A model generated the notes under the pieces. It ran no database searches. It worked only from the letters and a program-made list of their open reading frames with translations, and was not told where the DNA came from. A DNA stretch of 26,940 nt from a virus, in IMG/VR virus record IMGVR_UViG_3300021961_000522, positions 1-26,940 of that record; one strand, given 5' to 3'. Of this stretch, positions 6,662-26,940 are shown in pieces. Numbering within the stretch: position 1 is the stretch's first letter; the number at the start of each line of letters is the position of its first letter. The translations under genes were made by a program, and so were the position numbers.

Positions 6662-6784
6662 ATGATTAAAAAAATAAAATACATTTTGAAGAATTTCAAC
6701 ACTATATATTTTATGTGGTTATATAAAAGACATTTAAAAATGAGAATTGAAAAAAATAACTTTGGGAGAAATGAAGAATGGTAA
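6662..6784 (+). CDS. possible small basic protein (40 aa)
   Basis: An open frame from ATG 6662 to TAA 6782-6784 fills the gap between the nucleotidyltransferase and uvsE and overlaps the uvsE start by seven bases. The product is basic and aromatic (MIKKIKYILKNFNTIYFMWL...). There is no convincing ribosome site. The stretch also holds an AAATACATTTT string shared with the region upstream of 5618, so it may instead be an untranslated promoter region. Confidence 0.35.
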   Translation: MIKKIKYILKNFNTIYFMWLYKRHLKMRIEKNNFGRNEEW

Positions 6785-7722
6785 ATAACAAAATTGGTTA
6801 TGCATGTATCAATATGGCATTGAGTTATCCTACTAAGTATGGTAATAAACCAAAAGGTACAAAACCAATCACAACAAATCGTAGTATGATTCGTAGAACC
6901 TTTGATGAGAAAGGTGTGAATTATGCATCAGAATTATGTTTACAAAATGTAAAAGATTTGAATCAAATTATTTCATGGAATGTATTGAATGGTTATGATT
7001 TCTATCGTTTGAGTTCTGGTTTAGCACCGTGGAAAACTGAGTACGAGTGGATTGATTTGAAAGATATAGATGAGATTAAAAAATGGTTTCATTCAGCTGG
7101 TACAATGGCTACTACTCATGGAATGAGATTAACCGCTCATCCTGGCCCTTTCAATGTATTGGTATCACCGAATGAGAATGTAGTTCAGAACACTATCAAA
7201 GACTTAACTATACATGGTGAAGAGTTCGATATGATGGGGTTATCTCGTACACCTTACAACAAACTAAACATACATTGTAATGGTGTGTATGGTGATAAGA
7301 TATCAGCTATGGATAGGTTCTGTAAGAACTTTGAACGATTACCTGAATCAGTACAAACAAGATTGACTGTTGAGAATGACGATAAAGCAAGTATGTACTC
7401 AGTAAAAGATTTGATGTACATTCACGAAAGAATTGGAATACCAATTGTATTTGATTATCACCATCATAGATTTAATACTGGTGATTTATCAGAACAAGAA
7501 GCACTTGAGTTAGCAATATCCACTTGGGGTGATATCAAACCAGTGGTTCATTATTCTGAATCTCGTAGTGTAGAACAATTGGATGAAAGTATTAAACCAC
7601 AAGCACATTCAGATTATGTTGTGGATTACATTGATACCTACGGCCACAATGTAGATATTATGGTTGAAGCAAAACACAAAGAACTGGCTGTAGATAAGTA
7701 CAAGGAGTTATATTTTGGATAA
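6778..7722 (+). CDS. uvsE: UV-damage endonuclease, UvsE/UvdE family
   Basis: The 314-residue product has the length and order of UV-damage endonucleases (TIM-barrel fold). It has IGYACINMAL at the N-terminus, HGMRLTAHPG near residues 115-125, and the metal-site strand TVENDDK (Glu199-Asn-Asp-Asp202). FDYHHHRF (Asp226, His228-230) and DIMVEAKHKE near the C-terminus complete the metal ligands. The enzyme nicks DNA 5' of UV photoproducts and starts an alternative excision repair. That is a sensible cargo for a phage of sunlit water, although light exposure is inferred. A GGGAG ribosome site lies upstream of the ATG. Confidence 0.9.
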   Translation: MVNNKIGYACINMALSYPTKYGNKPKGTKPITTNRSMIRRTFDEKGVNYASELCLQNVKDLNQIISWNVLNGYDFYRLSSGLAPWKTEYEWIDLKDIDEIKKWFHSAGTMATTHGMRLTAHPGPFNVLVSPNENVVQNTIKDLTIHGEEFDMMGLSRTPYNKLNIHCNGVYGDKISAMDRFCKNFERLPESVQTRLTVENDDKASMYSVKDLMYIHERIGIPIVFDYHHHRFNTGDLSEQEALELAISTWGDIKPVVHYSESRSVEQLDESIKPQAHSDYVVDYIDTYGHNVDIMVEAKHKELAVDKYKELYFG

Positions 7723-8255: not shown

Positions 8256-8836
8256 TTTTACAATCATTACTTAGTGGATTAGTATTGTTTACTTCATTTA
8301 GTGCAAGAACACCTAATGATGAATCTATTCTTAAAGATGATTATGAAATTGCACTTGGGTTTAAATCCGAGAACATATATTTCAAAAGAGATTGGGAACG
8401 AGAGTTAGGACAATCTTATATCGATGATGAGATATGGTTTGAGTATGAACCTAAGAACTTTTATTTTAAACCACAATATGTTAATAAAACATCTCGTGAT
8501 TTACAATATGGTAAGGCAGATATTCGTTATCGTAATGGTGATTACTCAATTGGATATACTGGATTATATTCAGATAAACAATTTGAAAATGGTATATCTA
8601 TAGGTGTTCAGAGAAAAAAAGAAATCAATGACAAATTCTCAATGGAAGTTAAGTGGGATGGTTATTATTTCAGAGATGAATTAACTGGTGAGAATCGTTT
8701 TGATATGGAAGATTATGCTCAATTAAATTGGAAAATTTCTGATAGATTGATACTTACTAATATCTTTGATTACAATGATATCAAGGGTAGACAATACTAT
8801 AAATTTAGTGTAGGAGTAGAATATGAACTTAAATGA
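8252..8836 (+). CDS. putative small outer-membrane beta-barrel protein
   Basis: The 194-residue product has a short hydrophobic leader (MILQSLLSGLVLFTSFSA) likely to act as a signal peptide. The rest consists of amphipathic strands with aromatic girdles (NIYFKRDWE, EIWFEYEPKNFYFKPQYV, KADIRYRNGDYSIGYTGLY, MEVKWDGYYF, YKFSVGVEYELK). About eight to ten strands fit a small barrel. The end is ELK rather than Phe, so the sorting signal is not classical. Possible roles are a superinfection-blocking receptor mask or porin-like factor, both inferred. It is coupled to genes on both sides. Confidence 0.5.
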   Translation: MILQSLLSGLVLFTSFSARTPNDESILKDDYEIALGFKSENIYFKRDWERELGQSYIDDEIWFEYEPKNFYFKPQYVNKTSRDLQYGKADIRYRNGDYSIGYTGLYSDKQFENGISIGVQRKKEINDKFSMEVKWDGYYFRDELTGENRFDMEDYAQLNWKISDRLILTNIFDYNDIKGRQYYKFSVGVEYELK

Positions 8837-8972
8837 AATTAAGAGAAAATTAGAAGAGGCATATCAAGAAGAAGACTGGAACTTGATTGAGGATTTAATT
8901 GATGTATTAGATACATTAATTACACTCGGTGAAGGTGATATGGAGTGGAGTTCGGATTTAGATGATGAGTAA
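8823..8972 (+). CDS. small acidic protein (49 aa)
   Basis: The ORF from ATG 8823 to TAA 8970-8972 overlaps the beta-barrel gene by 14 bases and ends eight bases before tRNA-Thr. The product (MNLNEIKRKLEEAYQEEDWN...) is a strongly acidic two-helix protein ending SSDLDDE. No family is recognised. Phages often use such acidic peptides as inhibitors or DNA mimics, but nothing here shows that. Confidence 0.5.
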   Translation: MNLNEIKRKLEEAYQEEDWNLIEDLIDVLDTLITLGEGDMEWSSDLDDE

Positions 8973-8979
8973 TTTATTT

Positions 8980-9052
8980 GCTAGTGTAGCTCAGTTGGTA
9001 GAGCAGAGCTCTTGTAAAGCTCAGGTCGTTGGTTCGAATCCAATCACTAGCT
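8980..9052 (+). tRNA. trnT: tRNA-Thr (anticodon UGU)
   Basis: A full cloverleaf can be drawn: acceptor GCTAGTG pairs with CACTAGC, the D arm is GCTC...GAGC, the anticodon stem is GAGCT/AGCTC with loop CTTGTAA, and the T arm is GTTGG-TTCGAAT-CCAAT. The anticodon TGT reads ACA and other Thr codons. The discriminator is T and no CCA is encoded, so the host CCA-adding enzyme is needed. It ends one base before the tmRNA. Confidence 0.95.
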
Positions 9053-9053
9053 C

Positions 9054-9397
9054 GGGGCCGAAATGGTATCGATTGGCATTTGTTTGATATCTAAGTGCAA
9101 CGAGGTTTGAGCAAGACCTACTAAAAAAGGTTCATTTTGTGAATTGGCACATATTCCAATGTTGCTTACGCTTGAGTAAGATGCATCTTACTTATGACTC
9201 CGATAGTAAGATAAGATGTCGATATCGGAACCAAGCTCACTTAAGGTTTAGAGTTTAAATGAAACCTCAGTTAAACCATTCTGTGTAAAATGGGATATGG
9301 TGGGTTGTAGATGACTACCGATTTGGAATCTAACTAAGTTGTGAATGACTTGGTATTAAGGGTGAACAAGACGGCGGTTCGAATCCGCCCGGCTCCA
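9054..9397 (+). ncRNA. ssrA: tmRNA (ssrA), one-piece, phage-encoded
   Basis: The 5' end GGGGCCG (9054-9060) pairs with CGGCTCC (9390-9396). The 3' part has a canonical T arm GGCGG-TTCGAAT-CCGCC, and the 5' part has the reduced D-arm region of tmRNAs. The length of about 344 bases is typical. Inside there is a likely tag frame followed by a strong hairpin GTAAGAT-GC-ATCTTAC (about 9176-9191) in the position of helix P5, then pseudoknot-like repeats. The best tag reading is GTYSNVAYA ending at TGA 9173-9175; an alternative frame gives AHIPMLLTLE ending at TAA 9177-9179. tmRNA rescues stalled ribosomes and tags the product for proteolysis. No CCA is encoded. Confidence 0.9.
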
Positions 9398-9401
9398 CAA
9401 T

Positions 9402-9486
9402 GGTAAGTTGGCTGAGTGGTTAAAAGCATCAGACTGTAAATCTGACTCTCGTATGAGATACGGTGGTTCAAATCCATCACTTACCA
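9402..9486 (+). tRNA. trnY: tRNA-Tyr (anticodon GUA), long variable arm
   Basis: Acceptor GGTAAGT pairs with ACTTACC. The anticodon stem TCAGA/TCTGA encloses CTGTAAA with anticodon GTA. An extended variable arm (CTCTCGTATGAGATAC) marks a type II bacterial tRNA-Tyr, and the T arm is GGTGG-TTCAAAT-CCATC. The discriminator is A, with no encoded CCA. It begins four bases after the tmRNA, so the three RNAs are probably cut from one transcript. Confidence 0.95.
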
Positions 9487-9544
9487 CTAACAAAAAATAA
9501 TTGCAAAAACATTAAGTTTTAGTGATGAAAGGTTATATTTATAT

Positions 9545-10090
9545 ATGAGTGTATATGAAGAACTTTATGATAATAATATTATGAAGAACAAATTAATTTA
9601 TATTTTGGCTATGATAATTATTGGTTTCAATGGTTATGTATGGACAAATATCTTTGATAATTACAAGGAGTTCCACAAGGACTCAGTTCGAACAATGAAG
9701 GCCGAAAACGAAAGATTACGTTCTATCGTTGAGGAATTCAAACTTGAGGGAATGGAAGTGACAGTAACAATGTATCATCCTGTTTCGTCTCAAACTGATT
9801 CTACACCGAACATTCTCGCGGATGGAACGCGTATTAGAGTACACAAAGCTAGTGAGTACCGATTTATAGCGGTTAGTAGAAATCTTTTGAAACGACATGG
9901 TGGTTTCTTGGATTATGGTGATTTCATAGTGTTGAGTGGAACTGGTCATAAAGATGGTGTCTATCAAGTTAAAGATACAATGAATAAGAGGTTCGTAAAC
10001 CGAGTTGATATATTAGAATCACCTGGTACAAAACCTTATAAGATTGACACTGCAAAAATAATGAAAACAGATTTAGTATTGACAAATTAA
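9545..10090 (+). CDS. membrane-anchored 3D-domain protein (double-psi beta-barrel, cell-wall linked)
   Basis: The 181-residue product has an N-terminal membrane helix (KLIYILAMIIIGFNGYVW), a short helical spacer (about 35-70), and a C-terminal barrel. The barrel contains VTVTMYHP, DGTRI, FIAVSRNLL, LDYGDFIVLSG and VKDTMNKRFVNRVDIL, which fits the 3D domain seen in MltA/RpfB/YabB-type murein proteins, with conserved Asp residues. It may act on or bind peptidoglycan during lysis or entry. The start may be ATG 9545 or ATG 9581; the second places the membrane helix directly at the N-terminus. Confidence 0.7.
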   Translation: MSVYEELYDNNIMKNKLIYILAMIIIGFNGYVWTNIFDNYKEFHKDSVRTMKAENERLRSIVEEFKLEGMEVTVTMYHPVSSQTDSTPNILADGTRIRVHKASEYRFIAVSRNLLKRHGGFLDYGDFIVLSGTGHKDGVYQVKDTMNKRFVNRVDILESPGTKPYKIDTAKIMKTDLVLTN

Positions 10091-10105: not shown

Positions 10106-11716
10106 TTGAAAAAATGGTTTTATGAAAAAAGTAAGTTTGATACTTTCAAATCAAACACTACTTATCACGACTTATTGTCCAAAACAGATTCAGAGTTTAT
10201 TGAGTGGGCTCGTCTATTAAGAAAAGAAGTAACTACACAATGGGATGAATATGGAACACCACCTGTCATTGGTAAAGATGAAGATGGTATTATCAAATCA
10301 CTTTCTAAATTAAGAAAGAATCCATGTGAGTTTTTAGAACAAGATAAAACAGGTGATAAAGAATCTCTTGGTATTATACAGAACTTCAATAAAGATGCTA
10401 GTGCTGTAAATCAATTCTTTCCAACAATGTTAAAAACAAAAATCTCTGGTGGTAAAAGTGCAGAGGGTGGTTTATCTATTTATGACCATTTTGCACAACC
10501 TGATATGGAAGAGAAGTTTGTAAAGATTATGAGAAGAGCTGTTAAGAAAGACTCCATGTATAGTTGGAGTAGAAGTGTTGTAAACAAAAGAGATGAGAAT
10601 CCATTTTGGAATGGACAAAATGGTAAAGATTTTATTCGTGATGTACACGAGGGTAAAGTGTTTGTTGATAAATACAAAGATTGTGATATTGTTTTAGCTA
10701 AAGTAAAATCCACAACAATGGATAACTATGGAACCATCAATGACCAGTTTGTTGGATTTGAGAATTTATATTTAACAGCAGATGATGTTAATGAGTGTGT
10801 TGATAGTGGTTGGTTAAACAATACACAAATAAGTAATCTTGGTGATATAGTTTCAGAGGAAACAAGTAAGAGTGGTAAAGTAACAAAGTTCTTTTATTTG
10901 ATTCGTTGGTATAATAAGAGTGATGGAATCTTTCCAAAGATATTACAAGTGTTTAGATTAAGTTGTGGACAACCAGCTGTAAACTTTCCAGCACTAACTG
11001 CAAAATATTTGTATGAAACTTATACATCTCATGTAGATGAACCAATCACAATCTATGATTCATCAAGTGGTTGGGGTGGTAGAATCATTGGTTCTATGAG
11101 TATGAGAAAGAAAGCACATTATGTTGGTACAGACCCTAATCCAGATACAAGTGGTAGATATCAAGCGGTTGCTGATTTCTATAATGATAATTGTATTGAT
11201 AATTTTAGTGATACATTTCAAAAGTTTTTTGAAGTAGAAAAACAAAGTAATACTTATGAAGTATTTACAGATGGTAGTGAATTAATTGGGAACAATCCTG
11301 AGTTTCAGAAGTATAAAGGTAAGTTGGATATAGTGTTCACTTCACCACCTTACTTTAATCGTGAACAATATTCACAAGATGAGAATCAAAGTTTTAAAGC
11401 ATATGCAGAATATGATGATTGGAGAGATAATTTCTTAAAACCTACATTAACTACAGCATACGAGTACTTAAAAAATGATAGATATATTTTATGGAACATT
11501 GCTGATATTAAGATTGGTGAATCATTATATTATCCATTAGAACAAGATAGTATTGATATCTTGGAAGAGTTAGGTTGTGAGTATAAGGGTAAATTAAAAA
11601 TGTTAATGACAAGAATGGTTGGATTAGACCCTACAAAAAGTGGAATCAAAAACGCTGTAAAACACAATGGTAAGGCATACAAGTTCGAACCAATCTTTGT
11701 TTTTTATAAAAAATAG
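10106..11716 (+). CDS. DNA methyltransferase (TSPPY motif), TTG start
   Basis: The C-terminal half of this 536-residue protein is an SAM-dependent amino-methyltransferase. The AdoMet motif is Asp318-x3-Gly-Trp-Gly-Gly-Arg326, followed by GTDPNPDT, and the catalytic motif IV is Thr412-Ser-Pro-Pro-Tyr416, typical of enzymes that methylate exocyclic N4 of cytosine or N6 of adenine. The first 270 residues do not match a family I recognise and may give target recognition. The start is TTG, with GAGGA five bases upstream; the first in-frame ATG is about 100 codons later. It opens the cassette that continues with the PLP enzyme and glycosyltransferase-like proteins. Confidence 0.85.
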   Translation: MKKWFYEKSKFDTFKSNTTYHDLLSKTDSEFIEWARLLRKEVTTQWDEYGTPPVIGKDEDGIIKSLSKLRKNPCEFLEQDKTGDKESLGIIQNFNKDASAVNQFFPTMLKTKISGGKSAEGGLSIYDHFAQPDMEEKFVKIMRRAVKKDSMYSWSRSVVNKRDENPFWNGQNGKDFIRDVHEGKVFVDKYKDCDIVLAKVKSTTMDNYGTINDQFVGFENLYLTADDVNECVDSGWLNNTQISNLGDIVSEETSKSGKVTKFFYLIRWYNKSDGIFPKILQVFRLSCGQPAVNFPALTAKYLYETYTSHVDEPITIYDSSSGWGGRIIGSMSMRKKAHYVGTDPNPDTSGRYQAVADFYNDNCIDNFSDTFQKFFEVEKQSNTYEVFTDGSELIGNNPEFQKYKGKLDIVFTSPPYFNREQYSQDENQSFKAYAEYDDWRDNFLKPTLTTAYEYLKNDRYILWNIADIKIGESLYYPLEQDSIDILEELGCEYKGKLKMLMTRMVGLDPTKSGIKNAVKHNGKAYKFEPIFVFYKK

Positions 11717-11776: not shown

Positions 11777-13720
11777 ATGGCATTTAGTACAACACCAAGA
11801 AACCCAATGATGTATTTTTGGGGTGATGATTTAGGATTGACTGGAACATCAAACCAAAGAGATAACGACCACGATGGTGAACAGGCAGAGATTCATGTTG
11901 ATGAGATAGATAATCATTTGACTCATAAAAATTTAATTACACCAGATTATTCAATTGATAATGGTGTAAAGATTAATTTTGGTGGTGAGATTACAATGAT
12001 TCTTCTTGATAAAGAAAATGGGATATGGGGTACTTCAGATGGATTAACTCGTAACACTAAAATGTTTTTATTGGGATTATCATTCAGAAATTTTGCAGAA
12101 GATAAATCAATCTTTGATAAATATGTTTTTAGGGGTGATGGTAAAACTATTAGATTCCAATTCATTACAGAGGTTGGTGAATTTGTAGATGATAATTACA
12201 AACACACTAATGATATTGTTTTTGAAATTGTTAAAAGAAATCAAAATATTCAAAATGTTATTGATGATTATTATAAAAAAACTTTATTCAATCAGAACTT
12301 TTTTGTATTGGAACAATTAGAACAATATAGAGATTGGGTTAAAAATCATCAGTTCAAATCCGATACAGATTTATTAAATGCTTTTGAAAATATTCTTAAC
12401 TTATATCAAGTTAGTTGGGCTCCATCAGAAAATACAATCGATGATTTTAGTATTAACTCTGGTGAACGAGGAGTTGCAACAAATGGTATTAGTTCTGTAT
12501 CTAATAAAGTGTTAGCAAAATTTCAAAATAAATATTTAAAAGGACAACCAGAAAATCATGAATTAAATTTGGTTATCAATGAAAAGATAAAATCTATATT
12601 TTCACCTATTAGAAAAAGGTTTAAACCTACTCAAGATAATTGTACCAAAATGTTTAGTTGGGTTTTACAATCTTATTATACCACAAAGGGTGGATACACA
12701 AAAGGTAGTGGTAGAGGTAGTGTATTAGATGTTGTATCTAATGAAATTATGAAAGTGTTAGATAATGAAATGGAAGATTACGCTCCAAGAAATAATGATG
12801 GTGAGATTGATTACAAATATAATGATACATCAATGTTAGAACATTTTAAATCTTCTTTAACATTGTGGGGTTGGTATAAAGACTTACAAAGAATAAATAA
12901 GTATTTTGATAATGGATATATTAATGAAGATGGTACAAGATGGATTCCTATTTTATTAAAGTATGAAAGAGTAACAAAACAAGAACTTACTTTAAAGGAA
13001 CAAAGAGTTATTCAGAACATTCACATTAATGGTAAGTTTGTTTCTTATTCAAGTTTTGATAAGTTAGTTGGTGCTTCTATAAATGAAATAGATAGAGATA
13101 CTGATATATCAAAACTCTTAGTTAAATATTTTGTAAACGATAATTCTGTAGAAACAATTAATTATAAGAATCAGTTTATAGAAGCTTTATTAACTAACAA
13201 AGTAAAAGATAGAACAAGCCATTTCCTAAGAAAGTATAATTACATTGATAATGTATTAGGACATTGTTCTTTAAAAAGTACTACAAAAAATTGGGTTAAT
13301 ATAAATCCAAACGAATCAGGTACAGAAGAATGTGAACATTATCTTTCTGTTAAAGGTAGTAATAAATCAGAAATAAGATATCATGGTATTAACTTTTATA
13401 ATTTAAATAAAACCACAAATGGTTTAATATCTAATGATTCTATTTCAGATAAAAAAGAAGTTGTTAAAAACTTAGATGGAACTCTTGGACAATTACATAA
13501 TCCAAATGATAAATTAGAAAACAATGTAAAGCAATTACTCAATGGTTCAGAATATGATATCTTTAGAGAAGATTCTTTTGGTGATGATGATTGGGTTAAC
13601 GTATGTTCAGTAGGAGTTATTGGAGATAATGTTTCAAGTGAATTAACAAATAACTTACTCTACAAATATAGAAGTGTTCAAATTGATAACTACTTAGAAA
13701 AGGTATTCGGTGATAAGTAA
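11777..13720 (+). CDS. large protein of unknown function (647 aa)
   Basis: The product is 647 residues, with no signal peptide or membrane helix and rich in Asn, Asp and Lys. N-terminal landmarks are MYFWGDDLGLTG, an acidic HDGEQAEIHVDEID stretch, and the strand VKINFGGEITMILLDKENG. The middle is helical (FSPIRKRFKPTQDNCTKMFSWVL; SSLTLWGWYKDLQRINKYF), and the C-terminus ends RSVQIDNYLEKVFGDK. I do not recognise a family. AGAGGA gives a good ribosome site, and it has its own promoter candidate. Its position between a DNA methyltransferase and a PLP enzyme suggests DNA modification, restriction-like or nucleoprotein work, which is inference from neighbours only. Confidence 0.85.
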   Translation: MAFSTTPRNPMMYFWGDDLGLTGTSNQRDNDHDGEQAEIHVDEIDNHLTHKNLITPDYSIDNGVKINFGGEITMILLDKENGIWGTSDGLTRNTKMFLLGLSFRNFAEDKSIFDKYVFRGDGKTIRFQFITEVGEFVDDNYKHTNDIVFEIVKRNQNIQNVIDDYYKKTLFNQNFFVLEQLEQYRDWVKNHQFKSDTDLLNAFENILNLYQVSWAPSENTIDDFSINSGERGVATNGISSVSNKVLAKFQNKYLKGQPENHELNLVINEKIKSIFSPIRKRFKPTQDNCTKMFSWVLQSYYTTKGGYTKGSGRGSVLDVVSNEIMKVLDNEMEDYAPRNNDGEIDYKYNDTSMLEHFKSSLTLWGWYKDLQRINKYFDNGYINEDGTRWIPILLKYERVTKQELTLKEQRVIQNIHINGKFVSYSSFDKLVGASINEIDRDTDISKLLVKYFVNDNSVETINYKNQFIEALLTNKVKDRTSHFLRKYNYIDNVLGHCSLKSTTKNWVNINPNESGTEECEHYLSVKGSNKSEIRYHGINFYNLNKTTNGLISNDSISDKKEVVKNLDGTLGQLHNPNDKLENNVKQLLNGSEYDIFREDSFGDDDWVNVCSVGVIGDNVSSELTNNLLYKYRSVQIDNYLEKVFGDK

Positions 13721-14480
13721 ATTTCTTGATTATGGTTATGATGATATCAAATGTGATGTCAAATTACCACTTCCTATCGTAGAAGAGTTTGATGATATCA
13801 GAGTTGTTCGTGATGATTTACTTGATGGTGGAACTAAACGAAGAGCGTTTACTCAATATGTTGCATCACTTCCTGATATAGAAGAGTTTGTATATGCATC
13901 GCCTCGTCAAGGATATGCACAATTATCATTAGCATATGCATGTAAAGATTTAGATAGAAAATGTACCGTGACTGTTCCAAAGGGTAAACGATATTGGTTA
14001 ACTGATGAGGCAGAAGAGTTGGGTGCTAATATCATAGAGGTTCCAATGGGATACTTAACAAATATACAACATAAGGCTAGAGTATATTGTGAAGAGAATG
14101 GAGCTCACTTGATTCCGTTTGGTGGAGACCATCCAATCATCATTGAGGCAATGTGTAGAGCGGCTATGAGTTTGGATTCAATTAAACGATTCGAACATCC
14201 AACAGAAGTTTGGACTGTTATGAGTAGTGGTGTATTAAGTAGAGGTTTACAAAGAGCATGGCCTAATGCAAAATTTTATGGTGTACAAATAGGACACAAC
14301 ACAACAGAAGACGAGATGGGTAGAGCAGAAACATTTCGTTCTAAATATAAATTTCAACAAGAGTGTAAGAAAGATGAATTACCACCATTTCCGAGTTCAC
14401 TAACTTATGATAGTAAGGCTTGGACATTCATCAAAGAACACGCAACTAAAGGAGCATTATTTTGGAATGTGGGAAAGTAG
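13710..14480 (+). CDS. PLP-dependent enzyme, fold type II (ACC deaminase/D-cysteine desulfhydrase-like), GTG start
   Basis: The 256-residue product resembles the tryptophan-synthase-beta superfamily. Asp-Asp-Leu-Leu-Asp-Gly-Gly-Thr-Lys43-Arg-Arg corresponds to the DD...GGNKxR motif whose Lys forms the Schiff base with PLP. ASPRQGYAQ matches the substrate-binding loop (normally SxGN), and MSSGVLSRGL occupies the place of the phosphate-binding glycine loop. It is shorter than bacterial relatives of about 330 residues. The loops differ from consensus, so substrate and reaction (desulfhydration, deamination or beta-replacement) are open. The start is GTG, overlapping the previous gene by 11 bases; its end overlaps the next by 19. 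Confidence 0.75.
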   Translation: MISKFLDYGYDDIKCDVKLPLPIVEEFDDIRVVRDDLLDGGTKRRAFTQYVASLPDIEEFVYASPRQGYAQLSLAYACKDLDRKCTVTVPKGKRYWLTDEAEELGANIIEVPMGYLTNIQHKARVYCEENGAHLIPFGGDHPIIIEAMCRAAMSLDSIKRFEHPTEVWTVMSSGVLSRGLQRAWPNAKFYGVQIGHNTTEDEMGRAETFRSKYKFQQECKKDELPPFPSSLTYDSKAWTFIKEHATKGALFWNVGK

Positions 14481-15619
14481 TAGTTACTCGATTACGAAGT
14501 ACAGAATATTATAAGGGTGAACCACTAAATCATATTGTTGATTCACATTATCATTTGTTAAATAACTTCATAGAAAAATATGATACGTGGCCACATAATT
14601 TTGATACATACAATTGTTCTTTACCATCACGAGAAAAGAAAAGAACTAATGTTAGAGATTTAAATATACTTAAAGAATCTGATGTGTTGATAATACCAAG
14701 TGAAGCTGAATTTGCTTATAACATATATGGTAGGATTCAAAATCTATTGATGGGTAGAAGTTGGGGGATGGTAGAATATATGAGAGAAATTTTAAAAGAT
14801 AATCCTAAACCAAGAAAAGTTATTTTGTTCACGAGTGATAAAGCAGATACAATAGAATTATATAGAGATAAGGTTTTTAAAGATATTCCTAATTTAACAT
14901 TTTATCAAATAGATGAGAGTGAGTTTCCAGGTGGATTACATCATTTAAAATATATAAACATAAAAAAACAAAATCTTAATACAACAAAAAATAAAGATTT
15001 TGGTTATTGGGGAACTTCTAAAAGATTTAAAATAGATTCTACATCAGAGATGAGAGATTATCATGTAAAGGATTATTATAAAGATGGTAAGATTGTAAAG
15101 TATGGTACTGCTGGATGTGAACTAAAAACAAGATTTATAGAACCATTATATGTTGGTAAAGAATCAAAAGATGAACGACACTTGATATTAAAAGAAATTT
15201 ATAAAGATGAATCAATTAGTAATAATTTAATTGGATACTTTGATGGATTTCAATACACACATAAGTTCGATAAGAATATGACTAATATTTTACCACACTT
15301 ATCAGAATGTAAATTTACACTTTGTTTTAATTGGCCAGGACAAGAAGAACATTTAACTTCAAGATACAATGAGGCATTAGGTTGTGATATTATTCCATTA
15401 GTATGGCAAAATTATGATAGTAATAATCAGTTAGTATTGGATGATAGACAAAGAATGTTTTCTTTCGAAGATATAAAAAAGTGCTTGACTTCTACATCAG
15501 AAAGTGTTAGATTACAATGGTTAAATTCTATTCAAGAAAAGTATTTAAGTGTAACTAAACCAATAGAATATTATGAGGAATCATTTAACCAAAAATTAAT
15601 GGAGATACTAAATGATTGA
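14462..15619 (+). CDS. glycosyltransferase-like protein (GT-B type candidate), TTG start
   Basis: The 385-residue product starts at TTG 14462 inside the PLP gene. It has an N-terminal region with a Rossmann-like strand (ESDVLIIPSEAEFAYNIYG) and PRKVILFTSDKAD. The C-terminal portion (ECKFTLCFNWPGQEEHLTSRYNEALGCDIIPLVW) resembles the nucleotide-sugar-binding end of GT-B and exostosin-type transferases, where a conserved R/E-containing helix precedes a G(C/A)xIPL strand. It may transfer sugar to phage DNA or to a surface component. Exact donor and acceptor cannot be read from sequence. Confidence 0.55.
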   Translation: MECGKVVVTRLRSTEYYKGEPLNHIVDSHYHLLNNFIEKYDTWPHNFDTYNCSLPSREKKRTNVRDLNILKESDVLIIPSEAEFAYNIYGRIQNLLMGRSWGMVEYMREILKDNPKPRKVILFTSDKADTIELYRDKVFKDIPNLTFYQIDESEFPGGLHHLKYINIKKQNLNTTKNKDFGYWGTSKRFKIDSTSEMRDYHVKDYYKDGKIVKYGTAGCELKTRFIEPLYVGKESKDERHLILKEIYKDESISNNLIGYFDGFQYTHKFDKNMTNILPHLSECKFTLCFNWPGQEEHLTSRYNEALGCDIIPLVWQNYDSNNQLVLDDRQRMFSFEDIKKCLTSTSESVRLQWLNSIQEKYLSVTKPIEYYEESFNQKLMEILND

Positions 15620-16487
15620 TAAGATTTATATACCTACACTTGGCAGACCTAATGAACAAGTAACTTGGGATAATCTACCAAAACAATTACAAGAAAAAGT
15701 TTGTTTTGTTATTCATGAAAGAGAAAAAGATTTATATGATTATGATGCAGAGTATTTAGTATTATCTGATAAACTAAACACTATTGCAAAAGTTAGGAAA
15801 GAAATTATATATAACGCTGATGAACAACGATTTTGTATGTGGGATGATGATGTTATTTTCTATAGAAGAAATAGAAAGTATTATGGTGATTTAAGAATTG
15901 ATGGAGTTTATATTCCAGATGTATTAAAGGAAGATGGGAAACCATTATCAAAATGGAAAATGGAATATAGAGATTTTGTAGAGATGTTTGCTCAATTTAA
16001 TGAGTGGTTTGATAATGAAAAAACTTTAGTTCATATTGGACATAGAAGAACTAACTTACCACCATTAGGTTCAACACATGATAATATATTTTTTAATTCT
16101 ATGCATTGTATTGATGGTAAAAAATGTAAGAAGTTTAGAGAGTATGTTGATTGGGATTTATGTCAAGTTGGTGAAGATGCTAACTTTATGTTAGAGTATT
16201 TAACACGAGGTTACACAAACCGAAGAACAGATTTATATTCAGCACATTGGGGTTCATATCAAGAGGGTGGATGTTCGGAGTATCGAGATGCGGAGTTCCA
16301 CAATAAAGAACATGAGAAGTTGATGAACAAGTGGCCAGAGTATGTAAGTGTTAGAAAAGAAATGATGGCTCAAGGTAAAGATGGAAAAAACATTGGTATG
16401 ATAAAAGAGTTTAAATATAATATGAAAAAAGCACATCAAGATTCTACAAACAAGTATTTAAAAAATCTTAAAAAATTTGATAACTAA
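15612..16487 (+). CDS. glycosyltransferase-like protein (GT-A type, DDD motif)
   Basis: The 291-residue product starts IYIPTLGRPNEQVTWDNLP, the usual first strand and loop of GT-A transferases. It has CMWDDDVIFYRR with Asp78-Asp79-Asp80 where the metal-binding DxD lies. Further on, DWDLCQVGEDANFMLEYLTRG resembles the conserved acidic catalytic helix. The fold and length fit a small sugar transferase. It overlaps the previous GT-like gene by eight bases (with GGAG at the correct distance), so both are probably made together. DNA-base, capsular or virion glycosylation are possible. Confidence 0.7.
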   Translation: MIDKIYIPTLGRPNEQVTWDNLPKQLQEKVCFVIHEREKDLYDYDAEYLVLSDKLNTIAKVRKEIIYNADEQRFCMWDDDVIFYRRNRKYYGDLRIDGVYIPDVLKEDGKPLSKWKMEYRDFVEMFAQFNEWFDNEKTLVHIGHRRTNLPPLGSTHDNIFFNSMHCIDGKKCKKFREYVDWDLCQVGEDANFMLEYLTRGYTNRRTDLYSAHWGSYQEGGCSEYRDAEFHNKEHEKLMNKWPEYVSVRKEMMAQGKDGKNIGMIKEFKYNMKKAHQDSTNKYLKNLKKFDN

Positions 16488-25053: not shown

Positions 25054-26940
25054 ATGATTAATTACGGATTAACACCTAAAGATAGAGAACAATTAGAATC
25101 CAAAAAGAATTTATATTCTGGTTTTGGAAGAGATAGTCGTGATTATATTCATTTGTATGTTTATAATAAACAAGGTACTCTTGTAGAAGATGAAATATTT
25201 TCAACAAATGTAGTTGATTTTACTGATGAAAAAACAATTAATTTAGATATTGGAACTCACTTAAGAGAACTTGGATATTCACAAGGAGAGTTTTCAGTTC
25301 AATATTTATTCCTTAGAAAAATAGCAGGTAAAGATGATACGGTTTTTATAAATGATTATGGTGATATTCATAGAGGTAAAATACAAACTAAAGTAGTAAA
25401 TGGAGTAACAAAATATTTCTCTACTAAAAAATTTGGTAATAGAAATTCACAAGCAGAATTAACTGAAATATTTCCAAAGGAAATGAAATATGTTTTCAAA
25501 AAAATATCTCAAGATAGAACCGAAGTAGAAATTAATTATCAAGATATTAAGAATGGAATCTATAGAAAAAATTTAAAAGAAATAAATAGAATTATAAATT
25601 ATACACCTACTAAACTTCCTGATAATGATGCGGGAACAATTAGATTTGATTTAACAGACCCTTATGTATTAGTTGGAAACTTTGATGAAAAAGATAGAGG
25701 ATTTACTGATGCGATGGTTGGGGGTGAAATATCAATTCAAGGTATTTATGAAATCAATGGTCGTATTATTCAAGAGGAAGAAATTATATATCCTGACCCA
25801 CCACCGCCAGACCCAATTGATATATTGGATGTGGATTATGTAAAAAAACAAGTTAAAGATAAAGTACCAACACCTTTTGTAGATATTGTTGAGGATTTCA
25901 GAGAAGAGTTACCAGAAGAAGATATAGTTTATGGTTGGGATGAATCAAGTAGCATATGTTTTGTAGGTGATACAAAAATAAAATTAAGTAACAATCGTAC
26001 CATACCAATCAAGATGATGAAACCAGGTATGAAAGTTAAAACTCAACAAGGGTATGCAAAAGTATTAAAGGTAACAAAAGAAAACTTACCTTATGGAGAT
26101 AGGTTTGTAAAATTTGGTAAACTCATTACAACAAATAGTCATCCAATCTTTTATAAAGGTGGTTGGTATCTTGCAAGTGAACTTGGTAAAGAATTTCATG
26201 GAGAACCTACTGATGTTTGGAATTTACAATTAGATAAACATCACACTATATATGCAGATAATGTGGTAAGTGCTACATTAAACAAATGGAAATCTGATAA
26301 TAATAAATCTTGGAAAGAAAGATTTTTTGAATCAAGAAATAGATTTAAAATGTTAAGACCTGCAGGACCAATACCTGGTGGTGGTAATTATAGTAGTATG
26401 GATGGGGAAGTTGGATTTACCGATGAAGGTGGTCTTACTTATGACGCTATACCTGAGGTAGGTGGATATTCCACTCCAAAGAGTACACCTTTTGTTAGTG
26501 ATAATGAAGTTGTTATGGATAGAGTTGTTCCAACATTAACAACAAAAGAAATTGTAAAACAAATAAAGGTTTCTCGAAACACACCTCTACCAATTGTAAT
26601 ACCAGAGATTCGTGAAGTAGTATCTGTTGATTATAAAGCAAAAATTATTGAGGTGTTAGACCATAATAGAGTTCGTGTTAATAAATCTTGGGAAGATATG
26701 TCATTAGAGAATAAAAATATTGGTGAAGATACATCAAAAGATATTTACCAAGATTTTATGGTTCAGTATATTAAACACCAAGTTGAAAGATTAAATACAT
26801 ATTTAGTTGCAGAAGGAACTTATAATTTAATTACAAATATGATTCCTAATCCAGATAATCCTGAATCAAGATTTGTAAAATTATATCAACCATTACCACC
26901 ACAAATTGAAACTATGGATTTATGTTATTTTGTGGAAGAA
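25054..26940 (+). CDS. large structural protein with embedded Hint domain (partial, runs off window)
   Basis: From ATG 25054, two bases after the previous stop, the frame stays open for 629 codons to the window end. Residues 1-245 look like a tail/baseplate beta protein. A proline hinge (YPDPPPPDPID) follows. Residues about 300-408 form a Hint-type domain: Cys302 in SSICFVGDTKI (block A), KPGMKVKT, then Thr360-Asn-Ser-His363-Pro (block B TxxH), and VWNLQLDKHHTIYADNVVS (block F). The terminal His-Asn and +1 Cys/Ser/Thr of inteins are not seen, so N-terminal cleavage as in hedgehog, rather than full splicing, is possible. A Gly/Pro linker and another structural part follow. Confidence 0.85.
   Translation, partial: MINYGLTPKDREQLESKKNLYSGFGRDSRDYIHLYVYNKQGTLVEDEIFSTNVVDFTDEKTINLDIGTHLRELGYSQGEFSVQYLFLRKIAGKDDTVFINDYGDIHRGKIQTKVVNGVTKYFSTKKFGNRNSQAELTEIFPKEMKYVFKKISQDRTEVEINYQDIKNGIYRKNLKEINRIINYTPTKLPDNDAGTIRFDLTDPYVLVGNFDEKDRGFTDAMVGGEISIQGIYEINGRIIQEEEIIYPDPPPPDPIDILDVDYVKKQVKDKVPTPFVDIVEDFREELPEEDIVYGWDESSSICFVGDTKIKLSNNRTIPIKMMKPGMKVKTQQGYAKVLKVTKENLPYGDRFVKFGKLITTNSHPIFYKGGWYLASELGKEFHGEPTDVWNLQLDKHHTIYADNVVSATLNKWKSDNNKSWKERFFESRNRFKMLRPAGPIPGGGNYSSMDGEVGFTDEGGLTYDAIPEVGGYSTPKSTPFVSDNEVVMDRVVPTLTTKEIVKQIKVSRNTPLPIVIPEIREVVSVDYKAKIIEVLDHNRVRVNKSWEDMSLENKNIGEDTSKDIYQDFMVQYIKHQVERLNTYLVAEGTYNLITNMIPNPDNPESRFVKLYQPLPPQIETMDLCYFVEE

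Follow-up and report, generated by a model that had tools for sequence, protein, structure and literature searches.

A complete one-piece tmRNA on a tailed-phage contig, with a tag ending in AYA and long two-module tags among its relatives

tmRNA is an RNA that releases ribosomes stalled in translation and adds a peptide tag to the incomplete proteins on them. A gene for it on a virus contig raises the question of whether a phage brings a ribosome-rescue RNA of its own into the host, which tag this RNA would append, and what would become of the proteins so tagged. The window, meaning the whole stretch of DNA that was analysed, is the 26,940-base linear IMG/VR virus record IMGVR_UViG_3300021961_000522, a contig of a T4-like tailed phage that encodes gp25-like and gp6-like baseplate proteins and whose closest isolates stand at 40-48% identity. 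A sequence-only reading had proposed a complete one-piece tmRNA gene at 9054-9397 (+), and this was confirmed with the Rfam covariance model RF00023, which matched window positions 9054-9400 (+) over its full length (model 1-374 of 374) at 64.9 bits and E 2e-23, the gathering score being 47 bits. ARAGORN run on the window reported the two flanking tRNAs only and not the tmRNA. The reading favoured here, with a probability of roughly 0.78, is that of a working phage tmRNA which supplements host rescue and carries a YAYA(A) ending kept throughout its clade; sequence and comparison support the gene, its structure and its tag frame, and from these we infer its activity. The locus is laid out as follows.

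8823-8972, plus strand: 49-aa acidic ORF upstream of the tmRNA (sequence read by eye); relatives that lack the tmRNA have a similar ORF close to the anchor ORF
8980-9053, plus strand: tRNA-Thr (TGT), abutting the tmRNA directly with 0 bases between (ARAGORN, Rfam)
9054-9397, plus strand: tmRNA gene (ssrA) as the mature RNA less its CCA, with 9397 as the discriminator A (RF00023, 64.9 bits)
9402-9487, plus strand: tRNA-Tyr (GTA), starting 4 bases past the tmRNA (ARAGORN, Rfam)
9545-10090, plus strand: 181-aa phage ORF downstream of the tmRNA, used as synteny anchor; its partial relatives occur in phages infecting Bacteroidota or unknown hosts

The structure was compared over a set of 17 short-tag homologues, in which pairing was counted in cells (pairs times sequences).

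9054-9060 with 9390-9396, plus strand: acceptor stem, GGGGCCG paired with CGGCTCC, including the G3-U of alanine identity; 119/119 cells paired
9103-9134, plus strand: pseudoknot 1, stems 9103-9107/9115-9119 and 9108-9112/9130-9134, both with compensatory changes
9143-9160, plus strand: small hairpin ATTGG/CCAAT around the resume codon; 83/85 cells paired over the 17 homologues, pairs mostly invariant
9165-9180, plus strand: P5 hairpin CTTAC/GTAAG, containing the end of the tag frame; 82/85 cells paired, little variation
9184-9229, plus strand: pseudoknot 2, stems 9184-9190/9212-9218 and 9199-9205/9223-9229, with compensatory change in 5 and 2 pairs
9244-9276, plus strand: pseudoknot 3, stems 9244-9249/9262-9267 and 9253-9258/9271-9276, clear in the window, with about two thirds of cells paired over the set
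9299-9332, plus strand: pseudoknot 4, stems 9299-9303/9315-9319 and 9308-9312/9328-9332, the second with compensatory changes
9373-9389, plus strand: T arm, GGCGG TTCGAAT CCGCC; 85/85 cells paired, compensatory change in 4/5 pairs

Covariation across the homologues thus extends over the acceptor stem, the T arm and pseudoknots 1, 2 and 4, and the G-U at the third acceptor pair is invariant (17/17). On this comparative evidence, the window tmRNA is a maintained gene and no remnant. It shares with bacterial one-piece tmRNA (RF00023) the G3-U acceptor, T arm, first pseudoknot, A at -4, resume codon, tag, P5 and three further pseudoknots, whereas it differs in being phage-encoded between two tRNAs, in a CCA that is not encoded in the window, and in a tag that ends in AYA.

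The tag frame rests on comparison with relatives.

9142, plus strand: A at position -4 relative to the resume codon, corresponding to A86 of E. coli and kept in all distinct contexts compared (26/26)
9146-9148, plus strand: resume codon GGC, from comparison with relatives
9146-9172, plus strand: tag reading frame GTYSNVAYA, conserved in homologues, with the same frame given by ARAGORN for the close homologue L181 and the homologue L088
9173-9175, plus strand: stop codon of the tag, TGA here, with TAA or TAG used by relatives

By this comparison the tag is GTYSNVAYA, resumed at GGC 9146, as the sequence-only reading had thought likely. Short-tag relatives have their stop at the same alignment position and follow the pattern G(T/N)xxN(F/V/Y)AYA, and ARAGORN reports GNYANVAYA* (L181) and GTQFNYAYA* (L088) in the GGC frame. 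The resume codon is GRC in 26/26 distinct contexts and the base at -5 is T in 19/26, which, with the invariant A at -4, is as expected from the E. coli U85-A86 rule on the role of A86 upstream of the resume codon (PMC2481249). Differences among short tags by codon position (0.22, 0.25 and 0.35) are weak evidence for the frame on their own, because the frame overlaps RNA stems.

The partial relatives of the anchor ORF that have known hosts belong to phages of Cellulophaga and Tenacibaculum. Bacteroidota tags have a Gly resume codon and the form GxxxYALAA, for example GENNYALAA; the Gly resume codon agrees with this consensus (GGC in the window, GRC in the contexts compared), and together with the anchor-ORF relatives it suggests a Bacteroidota host. 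A search of IMG/VR for host-like GExxYA(L)AA tags returned zero, and one genome scan for Bacteroidota host tags yielded no more than two bins, one of Gammaproteobacteria and one small and uncultured, whose tmRNAs were unrelated. No SmpB or Lon was found in 34 and 30 phage records, respectively, which are contig fragments of genomes that may have such genes elsewhere, so host factors are presumably needed; ClpP occurred in 2/18 records, was not general, and is perhaps a capsid protease there. In the proposed mechanism, the tmRNA would probably be co-transcribed and processed with its two flanking tRNAs; the host alanyl-tRNA synthetase would recognise its G3-U pair and load it with alanine, and SmpB and EF-Tu of the host would deliver it to ribosomes that have stalled. 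Resumption at GGC 9146 would then append A+GTYSNVAYA to the stalled protein, and the phage tmRNA would top up or replace host ribosome rescue during infection.

Many relatives carry an in-frame insertion that gives tags of 34-42 aa (one reads 49), where a review gives a known range of 8-35 aa (PMC8012679). Fifty distinct long tags are built alike, from G(D/E)xSLxGLxIDWHLA followed, after a linker that varies, by QP(T/S)YAYA(A). The motif GLxIDWHL, expected by chance about once on a rough estimate, was found in at least 120 IMG/VR stretches; 54 of the 80 such loci fetched parse as full tmRNAs, and among other loci tested 12/15 pass RF00023, the remaining three lying near contig ends. By a sequence measure, the long tags are under coding selection: in the unbiased set collected by neighbouring gene, 16 tags gave a pN/pS of 0.48 in the tag frame, which had no stops, whereas the other two frames gave 1.09 with 37 stops and 1.03 with 58. 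Each alanine of YAYA(A) in the long tags is encoded by three or more codons, so the peptide is kept, not the RNA alone. In 47/50 long tags, ACGA/TCGT variants included, the resume codon is enclosed by a hairpin of 4 bp, GCGA/TCGC. The alternation of Thr and Ser before YAYA follows P5 pairing (ACT...AGTT or TCT...AGAT), hence not every conserved residue is peptide-driven. A late start reported by ARAGORN for long tags (GNDQPTYAYAA) was rejected, since that start is not conserved, whereas the GGC after pseudoknot 1 and the whole frame are; the program likewise shortens the tags of L176, L090 and L117. Searches of 3.2 Mb of loci, of INPHARED and of PDB gave no convincing protein homologue of the long tag, and in the sequence searched here the SLxGLxIDWHLA module occurred only in tmRNAs.

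The AYA ending that the sequence-only reading had singled out as unusual holds across the clade: of about 60 distinct tags, short and long, not one has a final LAA, AYAA and YAYA being the commonest endings, and GTYSNVAYA falls outside the ClpXP-type class with a C-terminal LAA or ALAA. The ending is altered relative to the textbook LAA; if the host's own tag also ended in AYA, nothing would be altered. Among the short tags there is little variation in the codons GCT TAC GCT, which overlap the P5 stem, so that RNA pairing could explain the AYA in the window alone. The nearest known likeness is the Mesoplasma florum ssrA tag AANKNEENTNEVPTFMLNAGQANYAFA, which shares a C-terminal NYA(F/Y)A without LAA and, as in the long-tag relatives, has an upstream module; the C-terminus of GNTANYAYA resembles the ...GQANYAFA of this Lon-read tag (PMC9097571, PMC9382460). 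Set against the mollicute NYAFA, the endings NVAYA of the window and NYAYA and NFAYA of relatives are similar, not identical. Mollicutes lack ClpXP and their tag is read by Lon (PMC9382460, PMC8138137), but their upstream modules are unrelated in sequence to those found here, where the host is probably one of the Bacteroidota. For Mesoplasma-type tags, recognition by the Lon of other bacteria is poor (PMC8138137) and residual degradation by E. coli proteases occurs (PMC9097571), so Lon targeting cannot be assumed and stands here as an analogy. Host AAA+ proteases probably continue to degrade proteins that bear the phage tag. That these proteins would be handled differently from host-tagged ones, with weaker use of ClpXP and more of a Lon-type protease, is a tentative suggestion, doubted somewhat more than it is believed. 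A stronger proposal regards the clade tmRNA as a retargeting device and the window tag as a short form lacking the N-terminal module; YAYA(A) would steer stalled proteins away from ClpXP to another protease, and the module of about 17 residues, SLxGLxIDWHLA, would recruit a specific host or phage partner. This we consider unlikely.

The alternative that survives best, held at a little under even odds, is that the ending is proteolytically neutral: host ClpXP would read YAYA(A) and LAA with similar efficiency, and the only gain to the phage would be extra rescue capacity. Tags do differ between species, several proteases degrade tagged proteins, and it is ribosome release rather than degradation that keeps cells alive (PMC8012679). 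However, the complete lack of LAA in the clade, and alanine codons that vary while their residues are kept, suggest that the exact ending matters. A decoy RNA, by which the phage would mainly tie up SmpB or the host rescue pathway, as suggested for RNAs consisting of the tRNA-like domain alone such as that of mycobacteriophage DS6A, is improbable: an RNA of that kind inhibits tmRNA (PMC4131195), and one huge phage has a short form beside a full tmRNA, but the window gene and its homologues retain, besides the pseudoknots, the whole mRNA-like domain with a tag frame that is open and conserved, and a decoy needs no tag. The second frame that the sequence-only reading had left open, AHIPMLLTLE read in +1 from GCA 9147, does exist in the window, where it stays open for 10 codons and starts with the usual E. 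coli resume codon; it was rejected as very improbable, because only the GGC frame keeps the conserved A at -4 (26/26, as against 23/26 for GCA) and the common stop, while in relatives the GCA frame encodes peptides of 4-13 residues that are unrelated to one another and stop at varying positions, and ARAGORN takes the GGC frame in both homologues named above. As for a host tmRNA fragment, a prophage attachment-site copy or an assembly chimera, ssrA is a frequent integration site of prophages, but the gene is complete, has phage genes on both flanks and keeps its synteny in many independent, sequence-diverged phage contigs, by which this reading is already refuted. The two outcomes that the sequence-only reading had named as counting against itself, no match to tmRNA models and an alignment giving an ALAA tag, were both looked for, and neither occurred.

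Relatives were collected as 80 viral loci via the downstream ORF (9545-10090) and 80 more via the baseplate wedge; RF00023 exceeded its cut-off in 35/50 and 8/50 records checked (43/100), and dozens of marine phage contigs carry a homologous tmRNA, mostly at the same place. The view of phage tmRNAs as rare therefore holds only in part, given these records and the genes known in other phages. Presence of the tmRNA and type of tag cluster on the downstream-ORF tree, on which L159 is labelled 'none' though its contig carries a 34-aa tag (L187). A sister clade has no tmRNA at the locus; its members have either the upstream acidic ORF close to the anchor ORF or other genes in the gap. In L116, a relative without tmRNA at the locus, a peptide-deformylase-like gene lies near the site, upstream of 5001 (read by eye). 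Second RF00023 matches of 76 nt in relatives proved to be plain tRNA-Ala in the five looked at.

Phage tmRNAs listed by 2014 came from mycobacteriophages and Bacillus phage G (PMC4131195). These and the Streptomyces phage tmRNAs are alike in being complete tmRNA genes on phages, but the annotated Streptomyces phage tags end in ALAA (ANSKFAFALAA, DNSNVAFALAA). In INPHARED no homologue of the window tmRNA was found beyond tRNA-like ends, and no paper on these tags was found among the open-licence papers searched; the window tmRNA belongs to a large and apparently undescribed group of phage tmRNAs, in which the RNA type is already known and the tag family is new relative to the searchable literature. 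Standard annotation misses the window gene or shortens tags, so such tags have probably been overlooked so far. The group represents a large set of marine phages with their own ribosome-rescue RNA and a clade-specific tag, many tags exceeding the reviewed length range (PMC8012679), and makes two questions testable: whether a phage changes the fate of rescued proteins, and which partner, if any, the conserved IDWHLA module binds.

Long tags were also read by eye after pseudoknot 1 in the tmRNAs of Cellulophaga phages Calle_1 and phi14:2, both from Bacteroidota hosts, and of the huge phage LR756508, but these share no module with the clade and end in VAVGV, LAMVA and PAAV. Long tags may thus be wider in Bacteroidota phages. 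Counted from the first Gly codon after pseudoknot 1, the Calle_1 tag (L374 1501-1862) has about 30 aa, GNNTNAVNAQIEANMEAVNAILNLEVAVGV, and that of phi14:2 (L375 1501-1972), whose tmRNA lies 1 bit under the Rfam cut-off, about 38 aa; ARAGORN reports later starts for both. LR756508.1, a 484-kb uncultured phage, has a full tmRNA (L222 1501-1947) with a 37-aa tag, GVNNADYESAGFTAEDFAQMDGESLYHGSERKPAAV, and a 112-nt tmRNA-like RNA with little beyond the tRNA-like domain (L224 1501-1612, 58.2 bits), possibly a decoy alongside its own rescue RNA. Three other phage contigs outside the clade (L166-L168) carry the tag AESNLAIAA near tRNA genes.

Elsewhere in the window, 13710-16484 and 10106-11716 encode a PLP-dependent enzyme, a TET-associated glycosyltransferase (TAGT) and an N6/N4 DNA methylase, possibly a DNA hypermodification set. 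A Hint/Vint domain (PF14623, 59 bits) lies within a baseplate-region ORF at 25054-26940 that runs off the contig, and an intein or Hint autoprocessing is possible there. A UvdE UV-damage endonuclease (PF03851, E 9e-59) at 6778-7722 is a repair gene carried by the phage.
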